From: Mesorhizobium sp.
GTDB lineage: Bacteria > Pseudomonadota > Alphaproteobacteria > Rhizobiales > Rhizobiaceae
Assembly: GCA_004017535.1 (NCBI GenBank)
Contig: SAJS01000010.1
Location: 105,797 to 169,796 of the forward strand
DNA: 64,000 bases
Direction: 5' to 3'
Below are positions 23,529 through 56,414 of the stretch, in pieces. Below the pieces are notes generated by a model that was not told the DNA's origin, made no database searches, and saw nothing but the letters and a program-made list of their open reading frames with translations. Made by a program: the position numbers and the translations under genes. Each line of letters begins with the position of its first letter. Position 1 is the stretch's first letter.

Positions 23529-24796
23529 GGCTTCACCTCCAGCACAGGTGGAACGGGCGCCATCAACGGCGCGCTGTCGATGACGCCGCCCGGATGAAGC
23601 GCGGGGAATTCCGCTTGAGCCCTCCGAATGACCTGCACGGCCGGGCTGTTGATGAGGAGCTTGGCCGTCGGGTAGGTCCACACGACCTTGTCGAAGATAT
23701 CGTTCGGACGGTAAGCAGTGTCGGCTATGCCGTCGCCATTCAGGTCGAACGCCGGATTGTCGCTCCAGTAATTGCCGCGTCCGTCCGCCGACCAGTCGAG
23801 CGATCGGGTGCCCACGTAAACGACCTGCGAGCGATTGTGGACGAAAGCGTTGCCGGTCATCCGGTTGCGCTCGGAACCCGCGGTGAAATGGATGCCGACG
23901 GCGCAATCCTCGAACCAGTTGTGGGCGAACAGGTTCTTGTTGGCGTTGTAGATGAAGACGCACTGGTCGCTCCGCCGCACGATGTTGCCTTCGATTTCGG
24001 CGTCGTTGGCGTAGTTGAGCAGAAGCCCGTGATCCCCGTCGTCCTCGGACAGATTGCTGCGAACGACCAGGCGGCTCGAATACATGATAACGTAGCCGTC
24101 ATGGTTGTTGCGCGAGACGTTGCCGCTTACCTCGCTGTCGTTTGTGTACATGTAGTGGACAGCGAAGCGGACATTCTCGATGCGGTTGCCACGGAAGACG
24201 TTCTTGCGGCTGGCATTGGTGAAGATGCCGTCGCGTCCGCCCGTGATGTAATTGCCGATCACCTGCGCTCCCGGCGCGTTCCAGACATACACGCCATTGC
24301 CGAGTTCATTGGTCCTGAGATCGGTACGCCCGACGATACGATTGTTTCGCACGATGGCGTTCGCAGCACCATGCACATAGACGCCGACGAGGCTATTCTC
24401 GATCCGGCTGTCCTCGACGATCGCGCCCGTGGCGCCGTCTTCGAGGAACACCGCCGCGTCCATTGGATCGTCGATGCCCGAATTGCGGATCGTGAGGGCA
24501 CGCACGACCACGTTCGGGGCGATCACCTCGATGGTGCGCCCCCGGCCTTGGCCGTCGAGCACGGCGCCGGCCTCGGCCTCGATGGTGAGAGCGTGGTCTA
24601 TCCGGATCGGGCCCTGGTGTACGCCGGCGGCGAGTTTCAGCGTATCGCCGGGTTGCGACGCGGCGATCGCTTGCCGAAGACCGTCACCCGCAGGGACGGC
24701 CAGGGTTTCCGCCCGCCCCTCCCCAGGAAGAAGGAAGACGCAGGCGGCGACGATGGCCGCCGCGACTGCGCTCCGCTTATGCCGTTGCCAGATCAT
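23525..24796 (-). CDS. nosD: NosD, periplasmic beta-helix copper-maturation protein
   Basis: The 423-residue protein has a signal peptide (cut after GRA near residue 29) and repeated parallel beta-helix turns (NNRIVGR, GNYITGG, GNVSRNN and others) of the CASH/NosD type. It docks with NosFY and hands copper from NosL to NosZ. The start at 24796 overlaps the nosZ stop; an upstream in-frame extension would lie inside nosZ. Confidence 0.93.
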
Positions 24797-29663: not shown

Positions 29664-30107
29664 TTATTGACCAACCTGCTTGAAGAGCTCGTCAAAGACC
29701 TTCTTGGCCTTACCGGGCTGGTTGACCGACTTCGCTGCCTTTAGGTTGCTGCTCGGATCGCCGACCACGATAAGCGCAACCATGCCCATGCCGTAGTGGG
29801 GATTGCACTTGACGCCGTAGACGCCCGGCTTGGCAAAAGTGACTGAGACATCCTTGTTCATCTCGCCCTTGAACGGCTGGGCCCCATCCGGCATCATTCC
29901 GGCAATGGATTCGACGTCATGGCCCTTGTCCTTGGCAACGAAATGGACGGTGTCGCCGGGCGCAATCTTGAGAAAGGACGGCTCTAGCTGAAACATGCCG
30001 TGCTTGCCCATGTTCATCATGTTGACTTCGACCTCTGCGGCGTGGGCAGCACCAGCTGTGATCAGCGTTGCTGCCGCGACTGACAGCACAAGTTTCATCA
30101 TACGCAT
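29664..30107 (-). CDS. Pseudoazurin, blue copper electron carrier
   Basis: The 147-residue precursor has a signal peptide (cut after AHA near residue 23) and a cupredoxin domain. The type 1 copper ligands are present: His in KDKGHDV, then Cys, His and Met in VKCNPHYGMGM. Pseudoazurin donates electrons to nitrous oxide reductase and copper nitrite reductase. It lies upstream of the nos operon on the same strand, with its own FNR-type box 75 bases upstream of the start. Confidence 0.93.
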   Translation of the reverse strand: MRMMKLVLSVAAATLITAGAAHAAEVEVNMMNMGKHGMFQLEPSFLKIAPGDTVHFVAKDKGHDVESIAGMMPDGAQPFKGEMNKDVSVTFAKPGVYGVKCNPHYGMGMVALIVVGDPSSNLKAAKSVNQPGKAKKVFDELFKQVGQ

Positions 30108-32442: not shown

Positions 32443-33549
32443 TCAAGGAAGCTGCGCCAGTTCTTTGCGTGACAAGCTGCGGTCGTTCGGCAGAAGGGGC
32501 GCAGGCGGACTGCCCAGATGACGCGACAATGCCTCGACTGTTGGGGCATAGCGCTTTCTGAGCGATACCAGTCGTCCCAAGCCATGCGGCTTTGGCGTTC
32601 CGTAGCCTGCCCTAGCCGCACGTTCCAGGACCTGCTGTAGGGCCTCTCTATCGGTTGTCGGGCGGTCGATGTCGAGCCGAAGCAACTTGCTCAGCTCGTC
32701 TGCAAGGTGGGTGCCTTCCTCACGCAGCAGGATAGCCTTGCCGCGCAGTTTGGGCTCATCGATCGCCTCGATGACGGCAGCAAGGTCCAACAACGCGGCG
32801 AGAGTGGCAGGCCACCCCGCACCCGTTTCCAGGGATCGGAAATAGATCAGGAACGGGTGCGATGCATGGCTCTGCAGGACCTCGGCGCACCAGTCCCTGC
32901 CCTTTACGAGCACCTGCTCCAACTCATCCTTGCAACCGAGTGAAGCATAGCGTTCCAGCAGCGCGACCGCGGATGGCGGATCGCCTGACGCGGTGGTGAT
33001 CTTCAGGATGCCGGAGTCACGCCTGCCGATGCTGGTCTGCACCTGAAGCAGATAAGTGACGGCCATCGTCATGACGGACAGGCCGCAGAATCCCGCCGCG
33101 ATGTTGACCCAACGGGCAGGACCGGTGGCATCCGTCTCGCTCAGGCCAACCGTCACCAGGCTGCTTCCGGCAACGAACACCGACTGGGAGAAGGTCGGCA
33201 CCGCAGGCCTGTACCAACCGCTCAGAGCAGCCACCATCAGCCCGAAACCGAACACGAGAAGCAGCATCCAGCCGGTGAAGGACGCTACCAGCACGAAAGG
33301 CGCGAACGCCGCCGGAATGGCGGCGCCGCGTCTGCGAGCATGCCGCAGTCCGAACAAGCCGGCGAAAACCATCCGGCTTGCGAGACGCAGGGACGCCCGG
33401 CTCTCGCCCGGCACAACGACGGTGTCAAAGACATCGCGAAGCGTGAGCCAGACCACAAGGGCTCCGACGACGAATTGCAGGATATCGACAAACATCTCGT
33501 GTAACGCCCAGACCGGACTTGTGTTCAGAAACCTGGCCTCCTGCTGCAT
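32443..33549 (-). CDS. Two-helix ion-channel-like membrane protein (K+-channel fold)
   Basis: The 368-residue protein has several N-terminal membrane helices with a pore loop SSLVTVGLSETD (residues 129-140) in the place of a potassium-channel filter, then a long cytoplasmic helical domain (about 180-368). The filter TVGLS differs from the canonical TVGYG at its last two positions, so potassium selectivity is uncertain. The second methionine at residue 19 (33495) is a possible alternative start. It converges on the XRE gene 7 bases away. Confidence 0.7.
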   Translation of the reverse strand: MQQEARFLNTSPVWALHEMFVDILQFVVGALVVWLTLRDVFDTVVVPGESRASLRLASRMVFAGLFGLRHARRRGAAIPAAFAPFVLVASFTGWMLLLVFGFGLMVAALSGWYRPAVPTFSQSVFVAGSSLVTVGLSETDATGPARWVNIAAGFCGLSVMTMAVTYLLQVQTSIGRRDSGILKITTASGDPPSAVALLERYASLGCKDELEQVLVKGRDWCAEVLQSHASHPFLIYFRSLETGAGWPATLAALLDLAAVIEAIDEPKLRGKAILLREEGTHLADELSKLLRLDIDRPTTDREALQQVLERAARAGYGTPKPHGLGRLVSLRKRYAPTVEALSRHLGSPPAPLLPNDRSLSRKELAQLP

Positions 33550-33774
33550 CGGACTCGCAGGGAAGCCGAAAGGGGTAAAGCTCGCCGCCGATCGGTCATC
33601 TCAGCCCGGAGCCGGCAAGATCGCAAACCGGCGACAGTCATAAACGGCCGTGCGTATCAAGCAGGCGTGATGGGACGAAGCGATCTGCTGCGGATTCGGC
33701 TTCGTGCGATTCCTCCTCCGCTCCGGCAGCCTCGGCCAGCCAACCTCGCCAGTGCAACCCTTCGCGATGTTCGA

Positions 33775-33799
33775 GGAACAAAGCGGCCGGTTGTCAGTT
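33775..33799 (+). promoter_or_regulatory. Candidate EcfG-type promoter of the quinoprotein-oxidase operon
   Basis: GGAAC and AGTT are separated by 16 bases, 29 bases upstream of the first ATG of the operon. The first -10 base departs from consensus; a chance match is possible. Confidence 0.45.
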
Positions 33800-33827
33800 C
33801 GGTAACATCAACAAACGTTTTCGGGTC

Positions 33828-34610
33828 ATGGCTCATCGTCGGTTCTTGTCACTAGCTCTGGGCCTGCTTGTCTTGGCATTTAGCTCGATGCAGCAAGGCA
33901 CTGCTCGGGCCGAGGCGCCCTGCCCGGCCGATCACGACAAGCTGCTCTCGGCCTTGAAGTCCAATGTCAAGGCGAGCGGCGGCCCCGCGAATGGCGGCTT
34001 CGAGACCAATGAATGGGCAGCGATCGTAGCTCGCGACGGCACCGTCTGCGCGGTTGCCTTCAGCGGACCCACGGTTGATGCGCAGTGGCCGGGCAGCCGG
34101 CTAATCGCGGCCGAGAAAGCGAACACGGCCAATGGGCTTAGCCTTGCCAACATGGCGCTTTCGACAGCCAACCTCTATGCCGGGGTGCAGCCCGGTGGGC
34201 CGCTGTTCGGCCTGCAGGCGACCAACCCCGTCAACGAAGCAGCGGCTTACGCAGGCGACCCCAAGACGTTTGGCAGCGCCAGCGACCCGTTGATCGGCAA
34301 GCCGATCGGAGGCGTCGTCGTGTTCGGCGGAGGCCTGGCTCTGTACGACGGAAAGACAATTGTCGGCGGCGTCGGTGTCAGCGGCGATTCCTCCTGCGCC
34401 GATCACAATATCGCCTGGCGGGTGCGCGCAGCCCTCGGCTTCGACAAGGTCCCGGCGGGCGTCAATCCCAACCGCAAGGACGCCATCATCTACGATCTCG
34501 ATCCCGGCGGGAAAAGCGCCTCCGGCTGGGGGCATCCGCTTTGTGCCGGCCACGAGGCCGACATCGCGGCGGAAATCGGTTCCGGCGTCGGAGGTTCGAC
34601 GCCCAAATGA
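33828..34610 (+). CDS. Secreted GlcG/HbpS-like (DUF336) protein
   Basis: The 260-residue protein has a signal peptide (cut near residue 28, after ARA) and a GlcG/HbpS-type domain with repeated glycine-rich turns (GGFETNEWAAIV, GGVVVFGGGLALYDG, GGVGVSGDSS). Members of this family bind haem or small ligands and recur beside PQQ-dependent alcohol dehydrogenases. It is first in a 10-gene operon and overlaps the dehydrogenase start by 4 bases, so a role with that enzyme is likely. Confidence 0.75.
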   Translation: MAHRRFLSLALGLLVLAFSSMQQGTARAEAPCPADHDKLLSALKSNVKASGGPANGGFETNEWAAIVARDGTVCAVAFSGPTVDAQWPGSRLIAAEKANTANGLSLANMALSTANLYAGVQPGGPLFGLQATNPVNEAAAYAGDPKTFGSASDPLIGKPIGGVVVFGGGLALYDGKTIVGGVGVSGDSSCADHNIAWRVRAALGFDKVPAGVNPNRKDAIIYDLDPGGKSASGWGHPLCAGHEADIAAEIGSGVGGSTPK

Positions 34611-36481
34611 AGCAAGCGCACCCAGCACGATCCAGGGATCACGCCTCACTGGCCGGGTACCCGTCGGCACTCCAAAGATATTCTCCAAGCATCTTTCCGA
34701 CCCTGCTGCTGGCCTGCGCTACGTTGCTGATGGCCGCTTCACAGCCTCCGCCAGCACCGGCGATTTCTCCGCCTGCCGCGGCCGCGCCGCCCGATGACGG
34801 GCAATGGACGATGCCGGCCAAGAACTACGCCTCGACGCGCTTTAGCGAGCTCGCGGAAATCAACGAAGGCAACGTCAAGAACCTGCAGGTCGCCTTCACC
34901 TTCTCGACCGGAGTGAACAAGGGCCAGGAAGCGGCGCCGCTGGTCGTCGGCAACACGATGTATATCGTCACGCCCTTTCCGAACATCGTCTACGCGCTCG
35001 ACCTCTCCAAGCCCGGCGCGCCGATAAAATGGAAATACGAGCCCAATCCCGAGCCGGCCGCGCAAGGGGTCGCGTGCTGCGACGTCGTCAACCGCGGCGC
35101 AGCCTTCGCGGACGGGCGCGTCTTCTTCAACACGCTGGACGGCCACACCATCGCGCTCGACGCGAACAGCGGCCAGCCGATCTGGAACGCCCATATCGGC
35201 AACATCAATATCGGCGAGACCATCACCATGGCGCCGCTCGTGGTGAAAGGCAAAGTGCTGGTCGGCAATTCCGGCGGCGAGATGGGCGTGCGCGGCTGGG
35301 TCAAGGCGCTCGACGCCGGCGACGGTCATGTCGTGTGGACGGCTTACAACACCGGGCCCGACAAGGACGTGCTGATCGGCCCGGACTTCAAGCCGCATTA
35401 CGACATGGACAAGGGCAAGGACCTCGGCGTCACGACATGGCCGCCCGAGGCGTGGAAGATCGGCGGCGGCAACATGTGGGGCTGGATTTCCTACGATCCC
35501 GACCTCAACCTGATCTTCCACGGCACCGGCAACCCCGGCCCGTGGAATCCCGACCTGCGGCCTGGCGACAACAAATGGACGTCGGGAATCTTCGCGCGCG
35601 ACCCCGACACCGGAGCGGCGAAATGGTTCTATCAATGGACCCCGCACGATCTCCACGATTATGACGGCATCAACGAACAGGTCCTGCTGGACATGAACTG
35701 GCAGGGCAAGCCGCGCAAGGTGCTGGTCCGCCCGGAACGCAACGGCTATCTCTACGTCCTTGATCGCACCACAGGCGAGGTCCTGTCTGCAAAAACTTAT
35801 GGCCCCGTTAATTCCAGCAAGGGCGTAGACCTCAAGACCGGCCGCCTGGTCGAAAACCCCGATAAGCTGACCGGCACCGGCAAGGTCGTCCGCGACATCT
35901 GTCCGACCGCGTCGGGCCTCAAGGACTGGCAGCCTTCAGCCTTTTCGCCGAGGACCGGCCTGCTCTACATCCCGCACAACAATCTGTGCATGGACGAAGA
36001 AGGCGTCGAGGTGAACTACATCGCCGGCACGCCCTATGTCGGAATGAACGTGCGCATGATCCCCGGGCCGGGTGGCAATCGCGGCGCCTTCACGGCCTGG
36101 GATATCGCCGCCGAGAAACCAGCCTGGAGCCTCAAGGAGAATTTCCCGGTGTGGAGCGGCGCGGTCGTGACCGCCGGCGATGTGGTTTTCTACGGAACGA
36201 TGGAAGGCTGGTTCAAGGCGGTAAGCGCCAAGACCGGCGAGCTGCTCTGGCAGTTCAAGACCTCGTCCGGTATCATCGGCCAACCCATCACCTATCGCGG
36301 CCCTGACGGCCACCAATATGTCGCCATCTTATCCGGCGTCGGCGGCTGGGCGGGCGCCATCGTGTCGGGCGACCTCGACCCGCGCGATGCCACCGCCGCG
36401 CTCGGTTTCGTCAATGCGATGAAGGACCTGAAAAACGCAACCACGGCGGGAGGCACGCTTTATGTGTTTCGTCTGCCCTGA
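34607..36481 (+). CDS. xoxF: PQQ-dependent methanol/ethanol-family dehydrogenase, XoxF-like (lanthanide type)
   Basis: The 624-residue quinoprotein is an eight-bladed propeller with W-motif repeats. The vicinal disulfide pair Cys157-Cys158, Glu225 in GNSGGEMG, Asn309 in GTGNPGPW and the catalytic Asp351 are in place. Asp353 follows two residues later (HDYDGINE); this second Asp marks lanthanide-dependent XoxF/ExaF enzymes and is Ala/Ser in calcium MxaF. It oxidises methanol or other alcohols in the periplasm. The first 65 residues are a poorly conserved leader. XoxF is the best name; substrate preference is unproven. Confidence 0.82.
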   Translation: MKQAHPARSRDHASLAGYPSALQRYSPSIFPTLLLACATLLMAASQPPPAPAISPPAAAAPPDDGQWTMPAKNYASTRFSELAEINEGNVKNLQVAFTFSTGVNKGQEAAPLVVGNTMYIVTPFPNIVYALDLSKPGAPIKWKYEPNPEPAAQGVACCDVVNRGAAFADGRVFFNTLDGHTIALDANSGQPIWNAHIGNINIGETITMAPLVVKGKVLVGNSGGEMGVRGWVKALDAGDGHVVWTAYNTGPDKDVLIGPDFKPHYDMDKGKDLGVTTWPPEAWKIGGGNMWGWISYDPDLNLIFHGTGNPGPWNPDLRPGDNKWTSGIFARDPDTGAAKWFYQWTPHDLHDYDGINEQVLLDMNWQGKPRKVLVRPERNGYLYVLDRTTGEVLSAKTYGPVNSSKGVDLKTGRLVENPDKLTGTGKVVRDICPTASGLKDWQPSAFSPRTGLLYIPHNNLCMDEEGVEVNYIAGTPYVGMNVRMIPGPGGNRGAFTAWDIAAEKPAWSLKENFPVWSGAVVTAGDVVFYGTMEGWFKAVSAKTGELLWQFKTSSGIIGQPITYRGPDGHQYVAILSGVGGWAGAIVSGDLDPRDATAALGFVNAMKDLKNATTAGGTLYVFRLP

Positions 36482-37331
36482 TGTGTTCGGCTTGATCCAC
36501 AACGCGGCACGGAAGCTGTTCCCGCAGGTCGCGCCCGGCATCGCCGCGCTCGCCTTGCTGGTCTCGCCGGCGACCGCCGTCGTTCGTGAGCTCAGGGTAT
36601 GCGCCGACCCGAACAACCTGCCCTTTTCCAACGCGGCCGGCCAGGGCTTCGAGAACAAGATCGCGCAGATCATTGCTGACGATCTCGGGGCCAAGCTGAC
36701 CTACACCTGGTGGGCGCAACGCCGTGGCTTCGTGCGCAACACGCTGAAGGCGGGGCTGTGCGACCTCGTGCCCGGCACGCCGGCCAATCTCGAAATGCTG
36801 CGCACCACCACGCCCTATTACCGGTCGTCCTATGTCTTCCTGACCCGCCAGGACAGCCCGGACGTCACCTCCTTCAATGACCCGCGGCTGCGCGACTTGC
36901 GCATCGGCGTTCAGCTCATCGGCGACGACGGCGCCAACTCGCCTCCTGTCCAGGCGCTTGGCCGTCGCGGCATCGTCGGGCATCTCGTTGGCTACCCCGT
37001 CTATGGCGATTACTCCGCTCCCAATCCGCCGGCGCGCATCGTCGACGCGGTGGCGAGCGGCGAGATCGACGTCGCCGTGGTGTGGGGTCCGCTTGCCGGC
37101 TATTTCGCCCAAAAGCAGAGGGTGCCGCTGCGCATCACGCCGGTCACGCCGCGCATAGACGGTCCGCAACTGCCTATGATTTACGATATCTCCATGGGCG
37201 TTCGGCGTGAGGACGATCCGCTGCGTGGCGATGTGAACGGCGCCTTGGCCAGGCATAAGGCCGACATAGACGCCCTGCTGGTTCAATATGGCGTGCCGCG
37301 CCTCGATGCCTCCGGGAGTCCGGTGCGATGA
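36462..37331 (+). CDS. xoxJ: Quinoprotein-associated periplasmic binding protein, XoxJ/MoxJ-like
   Basis: The 289-residue protein resembles solute-binding family 3 proteins of the type found beside quinoprotein dehydrogenases: LRVCADPNNLPFSN, LCDLVPGTPANLEML and AVVWGPLAGYFAQK. In methylotrophs XoxJ/MxaJ helps activate or mature the dehydrogenase. Its start overlaps the dehydrogenase 3' end by 20 bases, so the same transcript is certain in practice. No transporter permease adjoins it, which fits a chaperone role. Confidence 0.82.
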   Translation: MCFVCPDVFGLIHNAARKLFPQVAPGIAALALLVSPATAVVRELRVCADPNNLPFSNAAGQGFENKIAQIIADDLGAKLTYTWWAQRRGFVRNTLKAGLCDLVPGTPANLEMLRTTTPYYRSSYVFLTRQDSPDVTSFNDPRLRDLRIGVQLIGDDGANSPPVQALGRRGIVGHLVGYPVYGDYSAPNPPARIVDAVASGEIDVAVVWGPLAGYFAQKQRVPLRITPVTPRIDGPQLPMIYDISMGVRREDDPLRGDVNGALARHKADIDALLVQYGVPRLDASGSPVR

Positions 37332-37861
37332 GGCCGATCGTCCTGCTGCTCCTGTTCACCTTGCTGGCTCTCGCTGCCTGCCAGCGCGAGGAGCGGGACA
37401 CACGCCCGCAATCGGCGCTCGGCTCCGGCGAGCAGCCGACGCCGGTGACAACGCTGGAACCCGGCGGGCAGCGCCCCTCCCCCACGGACAACAAGGCGGC
37501 GAGCTTCGAGGCCAACGCCTTTCATCTCAGCGAAGGCAAGCGCCTGTTCGGCTGGTTCAACTGTTCGGGGTGCCATGCCAATGGCGGCGGCGGCATGGGC
37601 CCCGCGCTGATGGACCAAAAATGGATCTATGGCAGTTCGATGGAAAGCATCCATGCCACGATCCGCGACGGCCGTCCGAACGGCATGCCGAGCTTCCGCG
37701 ACAAGATCCCCGACGACCAGATCTGGGAGCTTGCGGCCTTCGTTCGCTCGCTTAGCGGCAACGCGCCCTCCTCCGCCGCGCCGTCGCGCAACGACGACAT
37801 GATGGCGCATCCGTCCGAAAACCGCATGCCGGATGCCGCCACGCTGGGGAAGTCGCCGTGA
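37328..37861 (+). CDS. Mono-haem cytochrome c lipoprotein, XoxG-like electron acceptor
   Basis: The 177-residue protein has a lipoprotein signal (LALAACQR, Cys18) and one haem motif CSGCH at residues 79-83, with a methionine ligand probable in GMPSFRDK. Position right after XoxF and XoxJ and before the oxidase subunits makes it the likely electron shuttle from the dehydrogenase to the oxidase. Starts and stops overlap by 4 bases on both sides. Confidence 0.83.
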   Translation: MRPIVLLLLFTLLALAACQREERDTRPQSALGSGEQPTPVTTLEPGGQRPSPTDNKAASFEANAFHLSEGKRLFGWFNCSGCHANGGGGMGPALMDQKWIYGSSMESIHATIRDGRPNGMPSFRDKIPDDQIWELAAFVRSLSGNAPSSAAPSRNDDMMAHPSENRMPDAATLGKSP

Positions 37862-38871
37862 AACGCCTCGCCTCGATTGCGTTCGCCACGGCAATCGTCC
37901 TGTTTCTTCAGGGATGCGCAGGCTGGCAATCGGCGCTTGACCCAAAAGGTCCGGCGGCGAGCGAGCTCGCATGGCTGATCTGGTTCTTCGCCGGCCTGTG
38001 CGCGGTGGTGTGGGTGCTGGTGATGGCCGCCCTTGCCGTGCCGTTGATGATGCGGTCGCGGCAACATGCCGAGCCGCTTGCGCTGGACGCGGGCGCCGAC
38101 AGCCGCAAGCTGCGCGTGGTGATGATCGCTGTCGGGCTGACCGCCGTGATCCTGGTCGGACTGACCTTGCTCAGCTTCTTCGCCAACAGGACGCTTGCCG
38201 CGATCGGTTCGGATGCCGCGCTGACCATTCGCGTCACCGGTCATCAATGGTGGTGGGAGGTGCGCTACGAAGACGCCACGCCGAGCCGCATCCTGACCAC
38301 GGCCAACGAGATCCATATTCCCGCCGGCGAACCCGTGCGGCTTCTTCTCACCTCGACCGACGTTATCCACTCCTTCTGGGTGCCGAGCCTTTCCGGCAAG
38401 CTAGACCTCATTCCCGGCCGAATGAATGTGCTCGATATCAAGGCCGACAAGCCCGGCGTCTACCGGGGCCAATGCGCCGAGTTCTGCGGCGCGCAGCACG
38501 CGAATATGGGCACCTTCATCATCGCCGAGCCGCGCGCGAAGTTCGATGCCTGGTGGAACGACCAGTTGCAGCCGGCCGCCGCTCCAACAGGCGACGAGGC
38601 CAAGGCCGGCGAGAACCTCTTCCTGAAACGCCCCTGCGTGATGTGTCACAAGATCGGCGGCACGCCGGCGGGCGGAACGGTCGCGCCCGATCTTACTCAT
38701 GTCGCCAGCCGGCAGACGCTCGCGGCCGGAACATTGACGATGAGCCGTGGCAATCTCGCCGCGTGGATCGCTGACCCGCAAGGCGTCAAGCCCGGGGCGC
38801 ACATGCCGGTGGTCGATTTGAGCGGCGACGAGCTCAATGACATCGTCGCCTATCTCGAGGGGCTGAAATGA
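37858..38871 (+). CDS. ctaC: caa3-type cytochrome c oxidase subunit II with fused cytochrome c
   Basis: The 337-residue protein has a lipoprotein-like start (LQGC, Cys20), two membrane helices and a CuA domain with His171, Cys206, Cys210, His214 and Met217. A C-terminal cytochrome c domain carries CVMCH (residues 260-264). This fusion is the mark of caa3 oxidases, which accept electrons directly from a donor without a separate soluble cytochrome. The GTG start overlaps the previous stop by 4 bases. Confidence 0.92.
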   Translation: MKRLASIAFATAIVLFLQGCAGWQSALDPKGPAASELAWLIWFFAGLCAVVWVLVMAALAVPLMMRSRQHAEPLALDAGADSRKLRVVMIAVGLTAVILVGLTLLSFFANRTLAAIGSDAALTIRVTGHQWWWEVRYEDATPSRILTTANEIHIPAGEPVRLLLTSTDVIHSFWVPSLSGKLDLIPGRMNVLDIKADKPGVYRGQCAEFCGAQHANMGTFIIAEPRAKFDAWWNDQLQPAAAPTGDEAKAGENLFLKRPCVMCHKIGGTPAGGTVAPDLTHVASRQTLAAGTLTMSRGNLAAWIADPQGVKPGAHMPVVDLSGDELNDIVAYLEGLK

Positions 38872-40844
38872 GCAGCGCGGATCTCACCAACGAACGCGAT
38901 CTGCCGCCGGGGCGCGAAACGTCCGCCACAGGCGATATAGCACCCGAGCGTGACGGACCGCGCGACACCGGCATGGACGATGCCAGCCTGCACCGCTGGC
39001 TGGCGCGGACATGGCGGACGCCTCCCGGCATCATCGGCGCGCTGTCGAGCGTCGATCATAAGGTCATCGCACGCCGCTACCTGATCACGGCCTTTCTTTT
39101 TCTGTGTCTGGGCGGGCTCAACGCCGTGGCGATGCGCGTCCAGCTCTCGGGCCCGCAGCGCGGGCTGATCGGCCCGGATCTCTACAATCAGCTGTTCACG
39201 ATGCACGGCGTCACCATGATGTTCCTGTTCGCCGTGCCCATCGTCCAGGCGACCGGCATCTATCTGGTGCCCTTGATGGTCGGCACCCGCAACATCGCCT
39301 TCCCTCGCCTCAACGCGTTCGGCTATTGGGTCTATGTCTCAGGCGGCCTCTTCGCCTGGGTGTCCTTCGCCCTCTCGATGGGGCCCGACGTCGGCTGGTT
39401 CGCCTATGTGCCGCTGTCCGGACCGGAGTTCGGTCCAGGCAAGCGCGCCGACGTCTGGGCGCAGATGATCACCTATACCGAAGTGTCCTCGCTGGCCGTC
39501 GCCGTCGCGACCATCGTGACCGTGCTGAAGCAACGCGCACCCGGCATGTCGCTCGACAAGATTCCGCTCTATGTCTGGGCACTCCTGGTGACGTCCTTCG
39601 TCGTCGTCTTCGCCATGCCGGCGGTGATGATCACCTCGACCTTCCTGATCCTCGACCGTCTCGTCGGCACGCATATCTTCAACCCGGCCGAAGGCGGCGA
39701 CGCGCTGCTGTTCCAGCATCTGTTCTGGTTCTTTGGCCATCCCGAAGTCTACATCATCTTCCTGCCGGCGACCGGGATGGTATCCTCCATCATCCCAGCC
39801 TTTGCCCGACGCCCGGCGTTCGGCCATCTCGGGCTGGTCCTGTCGCTGATCGCGGTCGGCTTCCTGTCGTTCGGCCTCTGGGTCCACCACATGTTCGCGA
39901 CCGGGCTGCCGAAGCTCGGCGCGAGCTTCTTCACCGCATCCAGCATGTTGATCGCCATCCCCAACGGCGTTCAGATCTTCTGCTGGCTGGCCACTCTCTG
40001 GGAGGGCAGGCCGGTGATCCGCACGCCGCTGCTGTTCGTCTTCGGCTTCTTCTTCACCTTCGTCATCGGCGGCCTCACCGGCGTCATGCTCGCCTCCGTG
40101 CCGCTCGACCTGCAGGTGCACGACACCTATTTCGTCGTCGCCCATTTCCACTATGTGCTGATTGGCGGTTCGGTCTTCCCGCTTCTGGGAGCCGCCTATT
40201 TCTGGTTTCCCAAAATCACCGGCCGCATGATGAGCGAGCGCCTCGGACGCTGGCATTTCTGGCTGGCAATGATCGGGTTCAACGCGGCATTCTTCCCGAT
40301 GCACATCGTCGGGCTGTGGGGCATGCCGCGCAGGGTCTACACCTATCCGGCCGAGCTCGGCTGGGGGAACATCAATCTCTTCATCAGCGCCGGCGCGGTG
40401 CTCTTCTTCGTGAGCTTCGTGCTGTTTGCGTTCAACCTCGTTCATGGCGCATTGCGCGGAACGCCCGCGGGCGATAATCCCTGGGATGCCGGCACGCTTG
40501 AATGGGCGACGTCCTCGCCACCGCCCAGCTATAATTTCGCCCGCATTCCGGTCGTGACGAATGTCGAACCGCTCTGGGCCGAGCGCGAGGCGCTCCCTGT
40601 CGCCGCCGGGCTTCGGGTCGACGCACGCGAACTCATAGTCTCGACGGTGGCGGAAGCCCATCCCGACGTCCGCGAAAAATCGGCGACGCCGTCGATCTGG
40701 CCGCTGTTGGCGGCCATCGCCGTCGGCGCCACCTTCCTCTACTCGATCTTCACGCCCTGGGCGATCATCTGGGGCGCCGCGCCGATCGCCGTCACCCTGG
40801 TAGGCTGGTTCTGGCCCAAGGGCGATCCGGAGGACGAGGAATGA
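38868..40844 (+). CDS. ctaD: Cytochrome c oxidase subunit I (caa3 type)
   Basis: The 658-residue protein carries the type A oxidase motifs: low-spin haem His in FTMHGVTMMF, the Tyr-linked HPEVYI, the HH pair in VHHMF, and HFHYVLIGG. About 12 core helices are followed by extra C-terminal helices (SIWPLLAAIAVGATFLYSIF and more) typical of fused subunit I/IV forms. It is the catalytic subunit reducing O2 and pumping protons. Confidence 0.95.
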   Translation: MSSADLTNERDLPPGRETSATGDIAPERDGPRDTGMDDASLHRWLARTWRTPPGIIGALSSVDHKVIARRYLITAFLFLCLGGLNAVAMRVQLSGPQRGLIGPDLYNQLFTMHGVTMMFLFAVPIVQATGIYLVPLMVGTRNIAFPRLNAFGYWVYVSGGLFAWVSFALSMGPDVGWFAYVPLSGPEFGPGKRADVWAQMITYTEVSSLAVAVATIVTVLKQRAPGMSLDKIPLYVWALLVTSFVVVFAMPAVMITSTFLILDRLVGTHIFNPAEGGDALLFQHLFWFFGHPEVYIIFLPATGMVSSIIPAFARRPAFGHLGLVLSLIAVGFLSFGLWVHHMFATGLPKLGASFFTASSMLIAIPNGVQIFCWLATLWEGRPVIRTPLLFVFGFFFTFVIGGLTGVMLASVPLDLQVHDTYFVVAHFHYVLIGGSVFPLLGAAYFWFPKITGRMMSERLGRWHFWLAMIGFNAAFFPMHIVGLWGMPRRVYTYPAELGWGNINLFISAGAVLFFVSFVLFAFNLVHGALRGTPAGDNPWDAGTLEWATSSPPPSYNFARIPVVTNVEPLWAEREALPVAAGLRVDARELIVSTVAEAHPDVREKSATPSIWPLLAAIAVGATFLYSIFTPWAIIWGAAPIAVTLVGWFWPKGDPEDEE

Positions 40845-41446
40845 ACCAGCGGCCCGTCTTAGATATTTCCGACCTCCCGACCTTTGGGCATGGCCCGCGC
40901 AGCCCAACCTGGTGGGGTACGCTCGGCTTCATGGCGCTGGAAGGCACGGGTTTCGCGCTGGCCGCCGGTGCCTATCTCTATCTCGCGACCTTGTGGCCCA
41001 ACTGGCGCCTCAGCGCTCCGGTGCCCAACCATTGGCCGGGAACGATCGTGACCCTGCTTCTCGTCGTCAGCCTGGTGCCCAACCACATCCTCAACGGCTA
41101 TGCCAAGCGATGCGCAATGGGGCCGGTCCGGATCGGCATGGTGGTGATGTCCCTGCTCGGCCTCGCACCTCTTGTCGTGCGCTGGTTCGAGTTTCCGGCG
41201 CTGAACATCTACTGGGACACGAACGCCTACGGCTCGATGATCTGGGTGCTGCTCGGTCTCCACACCACGCATCTGATCACCGATGTTGGCGATACGATTG
41301 TCCTGACGGTGTTGATGTTCACGCACCATGGCTATAGCGGCCGGCGCTTCGGCGATGTCGGCGACAACGTCTTCTACTGGGACTTCGTGGTCCTCACCTG
41401 GATTCCGATCTACCTCCTCATCTACTGGCTACCGAGGTTAGGCTGA
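40841..41446 (+). CDS. ctaE: Cytochrome c oxidase subunit III
   Basis: The 201-residue protein has five membrane helices and subunit III features (WWGTLGFMALEGTGFAL, LGLHTTHLITDVGDTIVL, FYWDFVVLTW). Several positions expected for proton-channel support are present. It overlaps ctaD by 4 bases. Confidence 0.9.
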   Translation: MNQRPVLDISDLPTFGHGPRSPTWWGTLGFMALEGTGFALAAGAYLYLATLWPNWRLSAPVPNHWPGTIVTLLLVVSLVPNHILNGYAKRCAMGPVRIGMVVMSLLGLAPLVVRWFEFPALNIYWDTNAYGSMIWVLLGLHTTHLITDVGDTIVLTVLMFTHHGYSGRRFGDVGDNVFYWDFVVLTWIPIYLLIYWLPRLG

Positions 41447-41447
41447 G

Positions 41448-41789
41448 ATGCGCGCGCTGCGGCTGGGCACGTCCTGGGGAGGTTTGGTGTCGGGCCCCTT
41501 GGCCTGGGCAATCTCGACGCAGCTGAACTACGCCCTCGTGCATTGGCAGTGCAATCGTCAGGTGCAGGTGGTGCTCCCGGTGGCGCTTTTGCTCGCGGTG
41601 TTTTCGCTGCTCGGCGGCGCGCTGTCATGGCGGGCGAAGCGACAAGGCGGCGCGGCATTCAAACCGGAGCGCACGCGAGACACCGAGTGTTTCGTCGCCG
41701 ATCTCGGCATTCTCGCCGCATTGCTGTTCGCCCTCGTCATCATCATGCAGGGCAGCGCCGCGCTCATTCTCGATGAGTGCCTGCGATGA
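41448..41789 (+). CDS. Small three-helix membrane protein of the oxidase operon
   Basis: The 113-residue protein has three predicted helices and a polar loop between the second and third (RAKRQGGAAFKPERTRD). It starts one base after the ctaE stop. Position between ctaE and ctaG suggests a small accessory subunit or assembly factor; no family name can be supported from sequence. Confidence 0.6.
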   Translation: MRALRLGTSWGGLVSGPLAWAISTQLNYALVHWQCNRQVQVVLPVALLLAVFSLLGGALSWRAKRQGGAAFKPERTRDTECFVADLGILAALLFALVIIMQGSAALILDECLR

Positions 41790-42664
41790 GCTTCGACGCC
41801 TTCTTCTCGACCTCGATCTGCTACGGCGCCGGTACGCCGGAGGCCGGGTGGACATTGGCGCTTCCCATCACCCTTCCCCTGGCAGCGATCGCTATGATCT
41901 ATGGGATCGGCGCGGGCCGTCTATGGCGTCGCAGCGGCCGAGGCCGTCCCGAACGGCTGCGGCAAGCTCTGTTGTTCGCGGCCGGCTGGAGCGTGCTGAC
42001 CGTTGCGCTGGTCAGCCCGATCCATGCGCTCGGCGAGCGGGTGTTTTCTGCCCATATGATCGAGCATGAATTGCTGATGGCCGTGGCGGCGCCGCTTCTT
42101 GTCGCCGCCTCACCCGGCGCGGCCTTGATGTGGGCATTACCCGCTGCACTCCGCCGAGGGACGGGAAAGCTCACCCATGGCAAGGTGCTGCAGGCGCTCT
42201 GGGCCTTCGCCGCTCGCCCGCTCAGCGCGACGATCCTTCATGGGATAGCGATCTGGATCTGGCATGTCCCGGTGCTGTTCGAGGCAGCGCTGCAGCAGGG
42301 TATGCTGCATTATGCGCAGCATGCGAGCTTCCTCGGCACCGCCCTGCTGTTCTGGTGGGTGCTTCTGCCGCGTTCCGGCCGACAGCAGACCTATGGCATT
42401 TCCGTCATGCATCTTTTCTTCACCTCGCTTCACACCGGCTTGCTCGGCGTCCTGCTGCTGGTTTCGCCAAAACTCTGGTATCCGGAGAATGCCTCCGGCG
42501 CCGCGCTCTGGCGCCTGAGCCCGCTCGAGGATCAGCAACTCGCCGGGCTTGTGATGTGGGTGCCGGCTGGGCTCATCTACGGCGGAGCCGCCCTGCTGCT
42601 CGCCGGCCTTTGGATAAGCAACAGCGGAACCAGGGAGGCGGTCCATGCGCTCCGACCTGGTTAG
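41786..42664 (+). CDS. ctaG: CtaG-like assembly factor of caa3 oxidase
   Basis: The 292-residue protein has about seven helices and the CtaG_caa3 pattern: HMIEHELLMAVAAPLLV with histidines, a WIWHVPVLFEAAL segment and HASFLGTALLFWW. It is unrelated to Cox11-type CtaG and is the copper/assembly factor usually encoded with caa3 oxidases. ATG 41786 overlaps the previous stop by 4 bases. Confidence 0.85.
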   Translation: MSFDAFFSTSICYGAGTPEAGWTLALPITLPLAAIAMIYGIGAGRLWRRSGRGRPERLRQALLFAAGWSVLTVALVSPIHALGERVFSAHMIEHELLMAVAAPLLVAASPGAALMWALPAALRRGTGKLTHGKVLQALWAFAARPLSATILHGIAIWIWHVPVLFEAALQQGMLHYAQHASFLGTALLFWWVLLPRSGRQQTYGISVMHLFFTSLHTGLLGVLLLVSPKLWYPENASGAALWRLSPLEDQQLAGLVMWVPAGLIYGGAALLLAGLWISNSGTREAVHALRPG

Positions 42665-43061
42665 GCTGCTCGGGGGCGTCCTCGTCGCGATCGTGCTTCT
42701 GGTGGTCGTAATCGCGGCGACGACCTTGTGGCTCGACCGGCGCGAGCGGGTCCAACACGAGTCGGACGTGGCGACCGGCGGCGTGGGCGCGCGCGCCATT
42801 CCGATCATGACCGCGAATGGCTGCTCAGGCTGCCATACGATTCCCGGGGTGCCGGGGGCGCAAGGTCAGGTCGGGCCCCGGCTCGACGGCAGCCTCGCCG
42901 GACGCGTCTATATCGGCGGTCTGCTGGCGAACAATCCGGAGAACCTGATCCGCTGGATCCGCTCGGCACGGGAAATCAATCCGCACACCGCCATGCCCTC
43001 GACAAGGGTGACAGAGCAGCAGGCGCGCGACATCGCGGCCTATCTCTATGCCCTCAGATGA
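42645..43061 (+). CDS. Membrane-anchored mono-haem cytochrome c
   Basis: The 138-residue protein has one N-terminal helix (about 8-30) and the haem site CSGCH at about residue 60. A methionine ligand is probable in HTAMPSTRV. It overlaps ctaG by 20 bases and closes the operon. Its stop abuts the stop of the convergent ABC permease gene with no base between. A possible second electron donor to the oxidase. Confidence 0.82.
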   Translation: MRSDLVRLLGGVLVAIVLLVVVIAATTLWLDRRERVQHESDVATGGVGARAIPIMTANGCSGCHTIPGVPGAQGQVGPRLDGSLAGRVYIGGLLANNPENLIRWIRSAREINPHTAMPSTRVTEQQARDIAAYLYALR

Positions 43062-43868
43062 TCAGCCTTCGCCGCCACGCCGGGACCACAGGCCGCGACC
43101 GGGATCATAGCCGGCCACCGCCGCCAGGAAGAATGCCGCGAGACAGGCAACAACAACCAGCATGGAAACCATGTCGAAGCGCAGGTAGAGCGCAAAGCGG
43201 ATCAACTCCACCGCCGAGCTGAATGGGTTCCAGGCGGCGATCGTTGCCAGCACCGGACCGGCTTCAGCGAGGCGCCAGATCGGATAGAGCGCCGTCGAGG
43301 CGAAGAACATCGGGAAGATGACGAAATTCATCACGCCGGCGAAGTTTTCCATCTGAGTGGACATCGAGGAAACCAACAGGCCGAACGCGCCGAGCATCAA
43401 GCCCGACAGCACGAGCGCCGGGAGGACGGCGACATAGCCCATGATCGGCGGCCGCACGTCCCAGAAGCGGGCCACGAAAAGAAACAGATAGACGAGCGGC
43501 AGGCCGACAATCACGCTGGCAAGCAGGCGCGCGGCAAGCAGGTACCAGCGCGGCAGCGGGGCCGTCAACAAAAGGCGCATGCTGCCCATCTCGCGGTCAT
43601 AGACCATGGCCAGCGAACTCGCCATGGCATGGAACAGCAGCATCATGGCCGCCAGCCCGGGTACTACATAGACCTCGTAAAGAACATAGGTCTGGTAGGG
43701 CGGTGTGATCGACAGGCCGAGAACGGAGCGGAACCCGGCGGCGAAGATCGCCAGCCAGACCAGCGGCCTTACCATCGCGGAGAAAAGGCGCGCGCGCTGC
43801 CGCAGCGAGCGCAGCATTTCCCGCCGCAAGATGCCGTCGAGCGCCCGTAATGCGTGATCGACTTTCAT
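43062..43868 (-). CDS. ABC-2 type permease, quinoprotein-associated
   Basis: The 268-residue protein has six helices and ABC-2 features (REMGSMRLLLTAPLPRWYLL, NFVIFPMFFASTALYPIW). It pairs with the ATPase encoded upstream (4-base overlap). Similar ABC sets sit beside PQQ-dependent alcohol dehydrogenases. Substrate unknown. Confidence 0.85.
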   Translation of the reverse strand: MKVDHALRALDGILRREMLRSLRQRARLFSAMVRPLVWLAIFAAGFRSVLGLSITPPYQTYVLYEVYVVPGLAAMMLLFHAMASSLAMVYDREMGSMRLLLTAPLPRWYLLAARLLASVIVGLPLVYLFLFVARFWDVRPPIMGYVAVLPALVLSGLMLGAFGLLVSSMSTQMENFAGVMNFVIFPMFFASTALYPIWRLAEAGPVLATIAAWNPFSSAVELIRFALYLRFDMVSMLVVVACLAAFFLAAVAGYDPGRGLWSRRGGEG

Positions 43869-44590
43869 GGCGAACCCGTCAGCAAGGCGAATGCTTCAGC
43901 GACGCTTCCTACGCCGAGTTCGGGCGCGATGCGGTCCGCGGGGCCGGCCCAGCAAACCCTACCCCGATCCAGCACCACGACGTCATCGTCGGCCGCTACT
44001 TCTTCGAGAAAATGCGTCGCCCATAGGACGGCGATGCCACGTTCTCGGCAAAGGTCCCTTACATGCTGCTCGAGCGCGCGCCGTCCCGGCACGTCAAGCC
44101 CGGTGGTCGGCTCGTCGAGCAGCAGCAGGCGCGGGCCGTGCATCAGCGCCCGCGCAATCTCCACGCGCCGGCGCTGGCCGCCGGATAGCGCGCAGGTCCG
44201 ATCGTCGATCCTGTCCAGCACCTCGAGGCGGCTCAATTCCTCCCGTGAGCGCGCCTTGCTCAGTTTCGTCGGAAGTCCGTGCAGCGCGGCGTGGTAGCGC
44301 AGGTTCTCGCCCGCCGTCAGATCGAGATCGAGCGTCGGCAACTGGAAGACGACGCCCATTTGCGCGAGCGCGGCGGACGGGTTCGCCTGCATCGCCATAT
44401 CGAACACACGCACCAGCCCGGTGCGCGCGTAGTAGAGACCGGTGATCAGCGAGAACAACGTTGTCTTACCGGCGCCGTTACGGCCAAGCAGGATACACAT
44501 TCTGCCTTCAGCCACGGTGAACGAGACATTCTGGAGAACCTGCCGGGTTCCGAAGCTGTGGCTAAGATTCTCGATCGCCAGGGCGTTCAT
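43865..44590 (-). CDS. ABC transporter ATPase, quinoprotein-associated
   Basis: The 241-residue protein has Walker A GRNGAGKTT, signature LSGGQRRRVE, Walker B LLLLDEPT and the switch His in WATHFLEE. ATG 44590 overlaps the stop of the beta-propeller gene by 4 bases. It acts with the permease at 43062-43868. Confidence 0.9.
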   Translation of the reverse strand: MNALAIENLSHSFGTRQVLQNVSFTVAEGRMCILLGRNGAGKTTLFSLITGLYYARTGLVRVFDMAMQANPSAALAQMGVVFQLPTLDLDLTAGENLRYHAALHGLPTKLSKARSREELSRLEVLDRIDDRTCALSGGQRRRVEIARALMHGPRLLLLDEPTTGLDVPGRRALEQHVRDLCRERGIAVLWATHFLEEVAADDDVVVLDRGRVCWAGPADRIAPELGVGSVAEAFALLTGSP

Positions 44591-45546
44591 GGGCCGATCA
44601 CGACGCCCCATGGACCGCGCCCCACCGGCAGCGACTTCACGACCTCCTGGTTCTCCACGTCGATGAAGGAGATATCGCCGGAGTTGCCGTTCGCGCTGAT
44701 CAGTTGCTTCTGGTCGTCAGAGAGCGCGACATGCCAGGGCCGCTGGCCGACGAGATAGAGGCGCCTGACCGTGAACGTCTTCGTGTCGACTTCGGCAATC
44801 CTGTTGGCTGGGCCGAGCGCGACATAGGCAGTCGCGCCGTCGCGTGACATCTCGATGCCGACCGCTTGCACGCCCTCACGCCGGATTCCAGGCACCTCGA
44901 ACTCGATCTTGCCCGTTTGAACGCGTGTCGCAGTGTCGAAGACCGTGACGGTGCCTCGGATTTCGGACGACACCCATAATTGCTTGCCGTCCACCGAGAA
45001 CGCCGCGGCGCGCGGCCGCGTGTCGACGAGCAGATTGTCGATAAGTTCGAGCGTAGCGGCGTCGATGAGATGGACCATGCTCGTCGTCTCCGACGTGCAG
45101 GCGACGGTTCGGCCATCGGCGCTGATCGCCATCCCCTCCGGCTCGACGCCGACATCGACTGTGCCGATGATTTTCGCGCCAGCTATATCCACCACCGAGA
45201 CCTGGTTGTCGTTCTCATTGGCGACGAAGAGCCGCTTGCCGTCCGGATGCACGACAAAGAATTCCGGATCGGCGCCCGAAGGCAGCTGACCGACGACCTG
45301 CCGCTTGGCGAGATCGACCACGTCGATGCGGTTGTCGTCGCCTTCGGCAACGAACAGCGTCTTCTTGTCAACCGAAAGCGCCATGCCGCGCGGGCGCCGG
45401 CCGACATCGATCGCCGCCTGCAGTGTCATGGTCGCCCCGTCGACGACTGCGACAGTGTTGTCCTGCTCGTTGGAGACGTAAATCGTCTCGGCCGCCGCGG
45501 GAGGCACAAGGACCAACACCAGCAGGAGCGTGATCAGAATTTGCAT
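44587..45546 (-). CDS. Secreted YVTN-type beta-propeller protein, quinoprotein-associated
   Basis: The 319-residue protein has a signal peptide (cut after AAA near residue 19) and repeated YVTN-type blades (IYVSNEQDNTVAVVDGAT, LFVAEGDDNRIDVVD, LFVANENDNQVSVVD). Such beta-propellers commonly accompany PQQ-dependent alcohol oxidation. The ATG at 45546 overlaps the 3' end of the binding-protein gene by 13 bases. Confidence 0.85.
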   Translation of the reverse strand: MQILITLLLVLVLVPPAAAETIYVSNEQDNTVAVVDGATMTLQAAIDVGRRPRGMALSVDKKTLFVAEGDDNRIDVVDLAKRQVVGQLPSGADPEFFVVHPDGKRLFVANENDNQVSVVDIAGAKIIGTVDVGVEPEGMAISADGRTVACTSETTSMVHLIDAATLELIDNLLVDTRPRAAAFSVDGKQLWVSSEIRGTVTVFDTATRVQTGKIEFEVPGIRREGVQAVGIEMSRDGATAYVALGPANRIAEVDTKTFTVRRLYLVGQRPWHVALSDDQKQLISANGNSGDISFIDVENQEVVKSLPVGRGPWGVVIGP

Positions 45547-46754
45547 GCGCTCTCCTCCAGATCGATGCCCAGAGTGTCGAGCGGGGTGCGCTGATGCAGA
45601 AAACCCGGTTGTGGCGAACTGGAAACGAGCAGCCGAGGGCCTGCGATCAAAATGGGCTGGCGCATCTGCCCGTCCCACGGACGGAAACTCAGCCCTTGCC
45701 CCTTGAAGCCGGCGAGCAGGAAATCGTCGCTGCGCAGATACTTTGCGATCGCGGCCGGATCGAGGCTGTGGAGCCGCGTTGCCGCCTCGCCGATGCTTCT
45801 GACCGCCAGCCAGGCGGCGTAGTCGCTGGGCAGCATCCAGCGTCCGGACTGCTTGTGAAAGCGGTCCTGGAGCTGTGTGGCGCCCCATTCTTCGTCGACC
45901 GCGCTCCAGCCGGTTGCGACCAGCCCTTGCGTCCCGGCCACCGTCCTCGGCAAGGCGGTGCGCCCCTCGAGATAAGCGCCGAATTCGTCGGCCTCGTCGG
46001 CGACGACCAGAACATCATAGTCGCCGACCTGCGTTGCAGCAGGGATCTCTGTCTGGAGCGTGACATGCCCGGTGTCGGCGCGGCCGTTGGCGGGCCGGAA
46101 CGTCCAGGGCTTGTCGACGGTGATCTGTGCCCCGAAACGCGTCGCTGCCCGACGAAAGGCCGCCGCCATGGCCAGGTCGTCGGGATGCGGACCAGTCAGC
46201 AGGAACCAGTGCTGCCAGCCTTTCCAGACCAGATATTGCGCCAGGGCGTCGGCCAGCATGGCGCGGCTCGGAACGGTGTGCAGAACGTTTCTTCGGCAAT
46301 TCTCCTGACGCAGGCCGTCATCAGGGTCGCGGCTGTTGAACAGCGTCATCCGCTGGGCACCAGGCGCTGCACTCGCCTGCAGCAATTGCGCGGCATCGAG
46401 ATCGGCAACGACGAAGCTGATGCCGGCGGCTGCGAACGCGTTGACAGCTTCGGCAGGTGCTTCGCCCGGCTTGAGTATCCTTTCTTTCAGACGAAATTGC
46501 TGGCCGAGAAAGCGGCTCGTTCCGGCATCGTCAGCGATTCCCAGCCTAGCGCCCTGCAGGCCATCGTCGGTGACGGCCTCGTCCAACGGCCCAAGGGGTA
46601 GAGGCAGTTTGCGCTGTTCGCCGAGATAGCCGATCACCATCGTCTGCGGCTCGGCAAGCGTGGGGACGGCGATGGCGAGCAGACCGACAACCGCCAGCGC
46701 GAGCCGCATCAGGCTCAGGTCGAGCAAGCCAAGTTGGATGTTCGAAATCGCCAC
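45534..46754 (-). CDS. Periplasmic ABC-type substrate-binding protein, quinoprotein-associated
   Basis: The 406-residue protein has a signal peptide near its N-terminus (LALAVVGLLAIAVPTLA) and the type I periplasmic-binding layout seen in branched-chain-like proteins (VIGYLGEQRKL, VGDYDVLVVADEADEFG). It is first of a four-gene minus-strand operon (binding protein, beta-propeller, ATPase, permease) that converges on the xoxF-caa3 operon. The ligand is unknown. Confidence 0.8.
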   Translation of the reverse strand: MAISNIQLGLLDLSLMRLALAVVGLLAIAVPTLAEPQTMVIGYLGEQRKLPLPLGPLDEAVTDDGLQGARLGIADDAGTSRFLGQQFRLKERILKPGEAPAEAVNAFAAAGISFVVADLDAAQLLQASAAPGAQRMTLFNSRDPDDGLRQENCRRNVLHTVPSRAMLADALAQYLVWKGWQHWFLLTGPHPDDLAMAAAFRRAATRFGAQITVDKPWTFRPANGRADTGHVTLQTEIPAATQVGDYDVLVVADEADEFGAYLEGRTALPRTVAGTQGLVATGWSAVDEEWGATQLQDRFHKQSGRWMLPSDYAAWLAVRSIGEAATRLHSLDPAAIAKYLRSDDFLLAGFKGQGLSFRPWDGQMRQPILIAGPRLLVSSSPQPGFLHQRTPLDTLGIDLEESACKF

Positions 46755-56329: not shown

Positions 56330-56414
56330 CTTACGATATCAGAAGACGCGGACGCAAATCGACCGCAGCCGCAAAAGTGGCGCCGGTCAGTTGGCCCGCT
56401 GGGCATGCATTGCC

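Follow-up and report, generated by a model that had tools for sequence, protein, structure and literature searches.

Organization of the operon

We analyzed a 64,000-nucleotide window of a Mesorhizobium sp. genome (assembly GCA_004017535.1, 6.86 Mb in 73 contigs; contig SAJS01000010.1, positions 105,797–169,796), in which ten consecutive plus-strand genes combine a XoxF-type alcohol dehydrogenase with a caa3-type cytochrome oxidase. The genes fill 33828–43061 and overlap or abut (Table 1), with intergenic gaps of −4, −20, −4, −4, −4, −4, +1, −13 and −20 nucleotides in order along the operon. A tight ten-gene cluster of this content had been described in a first-pass annotation made from the letters of the window, and coordinates, gaps (−20 to +1) and Pfam and NCBIfam assignments all agree with that description and its gene names. 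The ten genes would form a single transcript; a promoter scan of 33400–43400 returned one promoter-like site, where shuffled sequence gave a mean of 1.6.

Table 1 Genes of the operon and of its surroundings in the window, with the assignments on which each name rests
Feature	Coordinates	Strand	Evidence
HbpS/GlcG-like secreted protein, first gene of the operon	33828–34610	+	PF03928, 40.9 bits
XoxF3-clade pyrroloquinoline quinone (PQQ) methanol/alcohol dehydrogenase, 624 residues	34607–36481	+	TIGR03075, 644 bits (cut-off 480); best solved relative 4mae; clade SH-aLRT 99
XoxJ-like periplasmic binding protein	36462–37331	+	TIGR03871 (MoxJ_2), 306.7 bits (cut-off 212)
Lipoprotein monohaem class I cytochrome c	37328–37861	+	Lipobox LAAC at residue 15, CSGCH at 79
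caa3 subunit II (CoxII), CuA domain and fused haem c domain	37858–38871	+	TIGR02866 (CoxB), 174 bits (cut-off 147.7)
caa3 subunit I (CoxI), 658 residues, C-terminal extension	38868–40844	+	TIGR02891 (CtaD), 700.7 bits (cut-off 670.75)
caa3 subunit III (CoxIII), short form, 201 residues	40841–41446	+	PF00510 (COX3), 25.3 bits (cut-off 23.8)
Small membrane protein, 113 residues, three predicted helices	41448–41789	+	No Pfam or NCBIfam family
CtaG, caa3 copper assembly factor	41777–42664	+	PF09678 (Caa3_CtaG), 176.8 bits
Membrane-anchored monohaem cytochrome c	42645–43061	+	PF00034, 32.2 bits; hydrophobic helix 5–23, CSGCH at 60
ATP-binding cassette (ABC) permease, ATPase, beta-propeller and binding protein of PQQ alcohol-dehydrogenase systems, convergent with the operon	43062–46754	−	TIGR03861, TIGR03864, TIGR03866, TIGR03863, all over cut-off
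pqqA, PqqA-like peptide	56194–56289	+	By eye
pqqB, pqqC, pqqD, pqqE	56298–59498	+	TIGR02108, TIGR02111, TIGR03859, TIGR02109, over cut-off

The oxidase subunits carry the motifs of a caa3 enzyme. Subunit II contains CAEFCGAQHANM (CuA) at residue 206 and CVMCH at residue 260, which confirms the CuA-plus-haem fusion noticed in the first pass; a CuA domain with a C-terminal haem c is also the form of subunit II in oxidases of caa3 type a-II. Subunit I contains GHPEVY, HHMF and HDTYFVVAHFHY, which we take to be the haem and CuB ligand motifs, and these motifs together with a length of 630–670 residues mark the type a-II subunit I. At 658 residues, it lies inside the COX1–COX4 fusion class of 630–670 residues described in PMC4013037. 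A simple hydropathy scan gives three clear helices for subunit III; the type a-II subunit III is a five-helix form.

Clade and metal site of the dehydrogenase

Counted from the ATG at 34607, the dehydrogenase contains Asp351-Tyr352-Asp353, the lanthanide-type DxD motif as first reported for it, with Asp353 as the additional aspartate two positions past the catalytic one. Alignment to 4mae identifies the metal-site positions as Glu225, Asn309, Asp351 and Asp353, residues to which we presumptively assign metal-site roles. A 57-row tree was rooted on MxaF 4tqo and includes no XoxF4 reference and no labelled XoxF3 sequence. In it, the window protein and 31 relatives (32 rows) form one side of a branch with a Shimodaira–Hasegawa-like approximate likelihood ratio test (SH-aLRT) value of 99, apart from the references 4mae, 7o6z, 6oc5 and 6dam. 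We take these chains to represent XoxF2 (4mae), XoxF1 (7o6z) and XoxF5 (6oc5 and 6dam). Two methanol dehydrogenases, 7o6z and 4mae, stand nearest to the window protein among the references (support 86 and 91, not starred), and all 20 dehydrogenases of the control loci introduced below group with the XoxF5 references (support 99). By this phylogeny, the window dehydrogenase is a member of a clade separate from XoxF1, XoxF2 and XoxF5, which is named XoxF3 here because it includes organisms with reported XoxF3 (Methylobacterium C2 and Microvirga, according to PMC8561711; Acidobacteria, according to PMC10875860).

Across 83 members of the clade, Cys157, Cys158 and Asp353 are present in every sequence, and Glu225, Asn309 and Asp351 in 82. 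The exception, a protein from Microvirga calopogonii (L089), aligns with changes at three metal-site positions, and its locus has no XoxJ or CtaG match; the locus is possibly decaying or misassembled, and it was retained in all counts. At the middle position of the DxD motif, 67 members have Tyr, 9 have Trp, 6 have His and 1 has Arg; those with Trp include Methylobacterium sp. WSM2598 and four Microvirga loci, in agreement with the Trp300 that PMC8561711 reports for XoxF3 of Methylobacterium and Microvirga. Elsewhere in the window genome, the only other XoxF-like matches are two partial ones of 34–36% identity, close together on one contig; judged by these matches, XoxF3 is the genome's only XoxF/MxaF-type dehydrogenase.

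Distribution of the XoxF3–oxidase arrangement

One genome per species was scanned across 84,980 species, and the best 80 of 578 confirmed stretches were taken as XoxF3 loci. They are skewed to close relatives, several being Mesorhizobium, and span Alpha-, Beta- and Gammaproteobacteria, Acidobacteria, Verrucomicrobia, Gemmatimonadetes and Rokubacteria. Fifty-two loci have at least 9.5 kb on both sides (well-flanked), and a CoxI gene of any identity lies on the XoxF3 strand in 49 of them; the remaining 28, whose flanks are shorter on at least one side, were left out of this count, and CoxI is seen in 14 of these. Counted over all 80, CoxI is on the XoxF strand in 62 and always within 3.1 kb of XoxF. 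As controls we used 20 XoxF5-type loci with about 9 kb on each side from a phylum-wide sample (20 of 39 matches at 46–54% identity, one each from 20 of 25 genomes), and CoxI is present in none of them. Among 61 genomes of the genus, 18 carry an XoxF3 orthologue (at least 89% identity), and exactly these 18 carry a CoxII orthologue (at least 78%); neither is present in the remaining 43, where the best CoxII reaches 54%. An oxidase beside XoxF3 is the rule in the loci surveyed, more than chance would give.

The genome search for this gene order that accompanied the first-pass annotation as a proposal returns an arrangement that recurs across several phyla. The further suggestion that such a dedicated pairing is unusual does not survive these counts, and the association is already in print (PMC4013037 and PMC10875860). 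The observation is real and well formed, but it is ordinary for the XoxF3 clade, and the window operon is one more member of an already published XoxF3–oxidase arrangement.

XoxJ is matched in 67 of the 80 loci, some of which have short flanks. An HbpS/GlcG match lies immediately upstream of XoxF in 11 of the 80, all Mesorhizobium, and anywhere in the stretch in 16; the HbpS/GlcG gene in front is a local trait.

XoxF is plasmid-borne in six listed Mesorhizobium records, with the full unit seen in one (NC_014918.1). The plasmid pSMED03 of Sinorhizobium medicae (NC_009622.1), typed as conjugative, carries an XoxF3–caa3 unit without an annotated last cytochrome, and IS66-family genes stand on both flanks of that stretch.

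XoxF3-linked CoxI falls into two lineages: A, which includes the window, and B, with nine rows (Sphingomonas, Caulobacteraceae, Methylocella and others). For the CoxI trees, two long-branch oxidases of the window's own genome (L183 and L186) were dropped once the first tree had been built, and genus rows that were nearly identical were thinned out; the best tree groups lineage A with XoxF-less rows (support 70). Two independent recruitments of caa3 by XoxF3 were considered and not adopted, as approximately unbiased tests reject neither a single A+B clade (p = 0.52) nor a grouping of B with XoxF-less caa3 rows (p = 0.57).

The cytochromes and the small membrane protein

The nearest solved relatives of the lipoprotein cytochrome are CcoP haem domains, and 63 of the 69 XoxF3 loci in which CoxII is matched have a cytochrome homologue no more than 900 nucleotides upstream of it. 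Assignment of this protein as a cL-type XoxG (TIGR03872) was rejected at 33.9 bits against a cut-off of 147.8. A search of the whole genome for the cytochrome cL family gave nothing over the cut-off, its top score of 34 bits being the operon's own cytochrome. The lipoprotein probably carries electrons between XoxF3 and the oxidase.

A homologue of the small membrane protein fills 51 of 52 CoxIII–CtaG gaps. In 52 sequences including that of the window, Cys35 is conserved in 50 and Cys111 in 51, and the two cysteines could plausibly be linked by a disulfide or bind a metal on the periplasmic side. The AlphaFold model is helical and of low confidence (predicted local distance difference test score 62), the best solved-structure match is 6m6z TMH4C4 (E = 0.0016), and a family search with 44 members returned six Pfam families, each matched by just one member. 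A vesicle-transport likeness of the protein is reported in PMC10875860. Both the two-cysteine protein and the anchored cytochrome are assigned to the oxidase module, not to XoxF.

Oxidase modules beside an FdhF/YdeP-family enzyme

Close relatives of the window oxidase also occur without XoxF, in Mesorhizobium and in one genome of another family. Fourteen such loci (L173–L179, L188–L190, L218, L219, L236 and L240) were defined by a CoxI of at least 65% identity among the fetched stretches; of 25 XoxF-less CoxII places in the genus sample, 15 had been fetched. A gene for an FdhF/YdeP-family molybdo-enzyme lies near the oxidase genes in 12 of the 14, L177 and L240 being without it, and is on the same strand in eight, divergent in three and convergent in one. 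TIGR01701 scores are 1104–1121 bits in L175, L179 and L190 and 894 bits in L173, the remaining loci being identified by tblastn only. At E ≤ 1e-30, no FdhF/YdeP gene was found in any of 98 XoxF3 stretches (the 80 named loci, of which 28 are short-flanked, 17 genus stretches and the window), a set in which some genomes are represented twice.

Sampling 347 genomes across the order by CoxII alone yielded 16 places. XoxF is nearby in eight, at 59–100% identity and taken as XoxF3 by that identity, with one (G625) on the other strand; five have FdhF/YdeP, one at a contig edge has XoxJ and a cytochrome, and two have neither partner. For the genus sample, 13 of the 25 XoxF-less CoxII matches were kept, those above 300 bits, a cut chosen after the list had been seen and one that leaves out G059. 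Ten of these 13 have FdhF/YdeP within 10 kb by coordinates. The other three (G030, G035 and G057) are all in XoxF3-holding genomes, as none of the ten is, and G059, itself an XoxF3 genome, has an FdhF/YdeP gene at a distance of 4 kb from a CoxII scoring 226 bits. This split between XoxF3 and FdhF/YdeP in the genus may be due in part to relatedness. On a CoxI tree of 90 rows with several weak forks, the FdhF/YdeP label requires four changes, and XoxF3 versus FdhF/YdeP alone requires three on the best tree. As a base rate, an FdhF/YdeP gene (E ≤ 1e-150) occurs in 22 of the 61 genus genomes and lies within 10 kb of a CoxII match in 12 of the 22, so the family is not always beside CoxII.

Inspection of a few FdhF/YdeP proteins by eye revealed no export signal, and we found no report of an FdhF/YdeP–caa3 gene cluster in searches of the open-licence literature. 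Fdh4A is 59% identical to the FdhF/YdeP proteins of P. putida according to PMC10308882, and PMC6414531 describes a rise of M. extorquens fdh4 with lanthanum along with xoxF1. We put forward tentatively, at somewhat short of even odds, that the oxidase module (cytochrome, CoxII-I-III, two-cysteine protein and CtaG) is a dedicated one-carbon (C1) oxidase that has repeatedly swapped XoxF3 and FdhF/YdeP partners in alphaproteobacteria. If this is true, either end of C1 oxidation, methanol or formate, can have its own terminal oxidase; the swap suggests a possible link of the oxidase to one-carbon oxidation as a whole.

Proposed electron path and alternatives

We favor, with a probability of about 75%, the reading that the operon is an XoxF3-type methanol (alcohol) oxidation system with electrons passing via the lipoprotein cytochrome to caa3; we infer metal use, substrate, electron path and proton pumping from sequence. 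XoxF3, with PQQ from the nearby pqqABCDE and probably a lanthanide ion, would oxidize methanol in the periplasm, with XoxJ as a likely accessory protein. The lipoprotein cytochrome c would take electrons from XoxF3 and hand them on to subunit II (haem c and CuA), from which they would reach O2 by way of haem a and a3/CuB in subunit I. Neither the quinone pool nor bc1 would take part in this route, and the copper would be loaded by CtaG. Formaldehyde would probably be disposed of by a glutathione-dependent dehydrogenase, because a genome search gave no match to Fae; one glutathione-dependent formaldehyde dehydrogenase scores over cut-off (600 bits).

Several observations weigh against this reading. 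Three of the 52 well-flanked XoxF3 loci (L076, L110 and L140) have no same-strand CoxI, the cox genes of L110 sitting on the other strand. Eight stretches (L042, L043, L044, L088, L092, L095, L113 and L114, of which L043 and L088 are the same record) have a more distant caa3 beside XoxF3, with CoxI 45–48% identical to that of the window; in most of them xoxF follows the cox genes. The lipoprotein cytochrome and the oxidase have close relatives that occur together without XoxF, beside FdhF/YdeP, which speaks against the two being exclusive to XoxF; the complete chain from periplasmic alcohol to O2 drawn in the first-pass annotation is plausible. The genome holds eight further COX1-family genes over cut-off (nine with that of the operon), so other oxidases could serve. 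Printed expression data on XoxF3 are mixed: in favor of the reading, PMC12482762 reports an increase of M. trichosporium XoxF3 with cerium (log2 7.66), and against it, in PMC9291206 the xoxF3 of Methylocella silvestris is barely expressed and shows no La response. According to PMC10875860 (2024), there are no biochemical data for XoxF3.

The oxidase could instead be co-regulated with C1 oxidation and not wired to XoxF3, acting as an alternative oxidase produced during methanol or formate oxidation, perhaps as formate inhibits ordinary cytochrome oxidases, while electrons from XoxF3 enter the general cytochrome c pool. A like module adjoins the formate-dehydrogenase-like FdhF/YdeP gene in the 12 XoxF-less loci described above. 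An enzyme with no export signal, presumably cytoplasmic, could hardly pass electrons directly to a cytochrome in the periplasm, so that co-regulation or a formate-tolerant oxidase becomes the rival; bacterial cytochrome c oxidases can be formate-inhibited (PMC10308882). However, the proximity of cytochrome and CoxII in 63 of 69 XoxF3 loci and the lack of any cytochrome cL over cut-off in the genome mean that a dedicated carrier is at hand, and we consider this alternative unlikely.

Equally, XoxF3 could be a general alcohol dehydrogenase with a main substrate other than methanol. The statement on biochemical data in PMC10875860 leaves room for this, and the adjacent ABC and beta-propeller genes are those of PQQ alcohol-dehydrogenase systems in a genome with no Fae match; against it, the nearest tree references, 7o6z and 4mae, are methanol dehydrogenases, and 4mae is also the best solved match. 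We assign this possibility, too, a low probability. Adjacency by chance in the window genome is refuted by the survey (49 of 52 well-flanked loci, spread over several phyla) and by the joint presence and absence of both genes in 61 genus genomes.

XoxF3 is widespread in soil bacteria. A genome with a sole XoxF3, pqq genes and no cytochrome cL over cut-off offers a simple test case for lanthanide use and for the electron-accepting cytochrome and oxidase. The interest of the locus lies in this test system and in the partner swap, the XoxF3–oxidase pairing itself being known.

Genomic surroundings

The pqqABCDE genes lie 13 kb downstream of the operon. PMC10875860 reports NRAMP, TonB-receptor and MscS genes with XoxF3 systems, and an MscS channel near xoxF3 in Verrucomicrobia. 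Divergent from the operon, 32443–33549 (minus strand) encodes an ion-channel-like protein (PF07885, 20.3 bits, below cut-off). The segments 24796–29027 and 29664–30107 (both minus strand), which lie upstream of the operon by a few kb, encode NosZ (TIGR04244, 1142 bits), a NosR-like protein (836 bits, below the cut-off of 1000) and a blue copper protein of the plastocyanin/azurin family.

A divergent haem-copper oxidase pair occupies 2305–4474 of the window (plus strand), with a CoxB-like gene at 2305–2862 (60 bits) and a COX1-family gene at 2852–4474 (275 bits, Pfam), neither over an NCBIfam cut-off. As its neighboring gene has the CoxB-like match, the COX1-family gene is more likely part of a second, divergent oxidase than a NorB.

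Comparison with known systems

The XoxF5–XoxG–XoxJ systems of M. extorquens AM1 share with the window the lanthanide-type DxD site and XoxJ. They differ in that XoxF5-type control loci have no CoxI within about 9 kb (20 of 20), whereas the window has CoxI in the operon. Their cytochrome is presumably of the cL type, where the window has a CcoP-like lipoprotein. As in the caa3 oxidases of Thermus and Bacillus, subunit II of the window combines CuA and haem c and is accompanied by CtaG; CoxI and CoxIII are fused in Thermus 2yev, whereas the window has separate genes.

Closer counterparts come from two surveys. PMC4013037 (2014) describes COX operon type a-II in alphaproteobacteria, names Mesorhizobium as a carrier, and gives as its features a subunit I of 630–670 residues, a short CoxIII, short hypothetical proteins and often a PQQ-dependent dehydrogenase such as methanol dehydrogenase, all of which the window shares. 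The dehydrogenase is termed MxaF-related there, and the term XoxF does not appear in the main text, whereas that of the window is XoxF3; a Mesorhizobium xoxF3 is mentioned in PMC7065363. With the XoxF3 systems of Acidobacteria, Gemmatimonadetes and Verrucomicrobia, as described in PMC10875860, the window has in common XoxJ, a cytochrome, CoxI, CoxII, CoxIII, CtaG and CytC, together with a protein of about 110 residues between CoxIII and CtaG and a YncE-like beta-propeller nearby. It is set apart from them by its Mesorhizobium host and by the HbpS/GlcG gene at the front of the operon.

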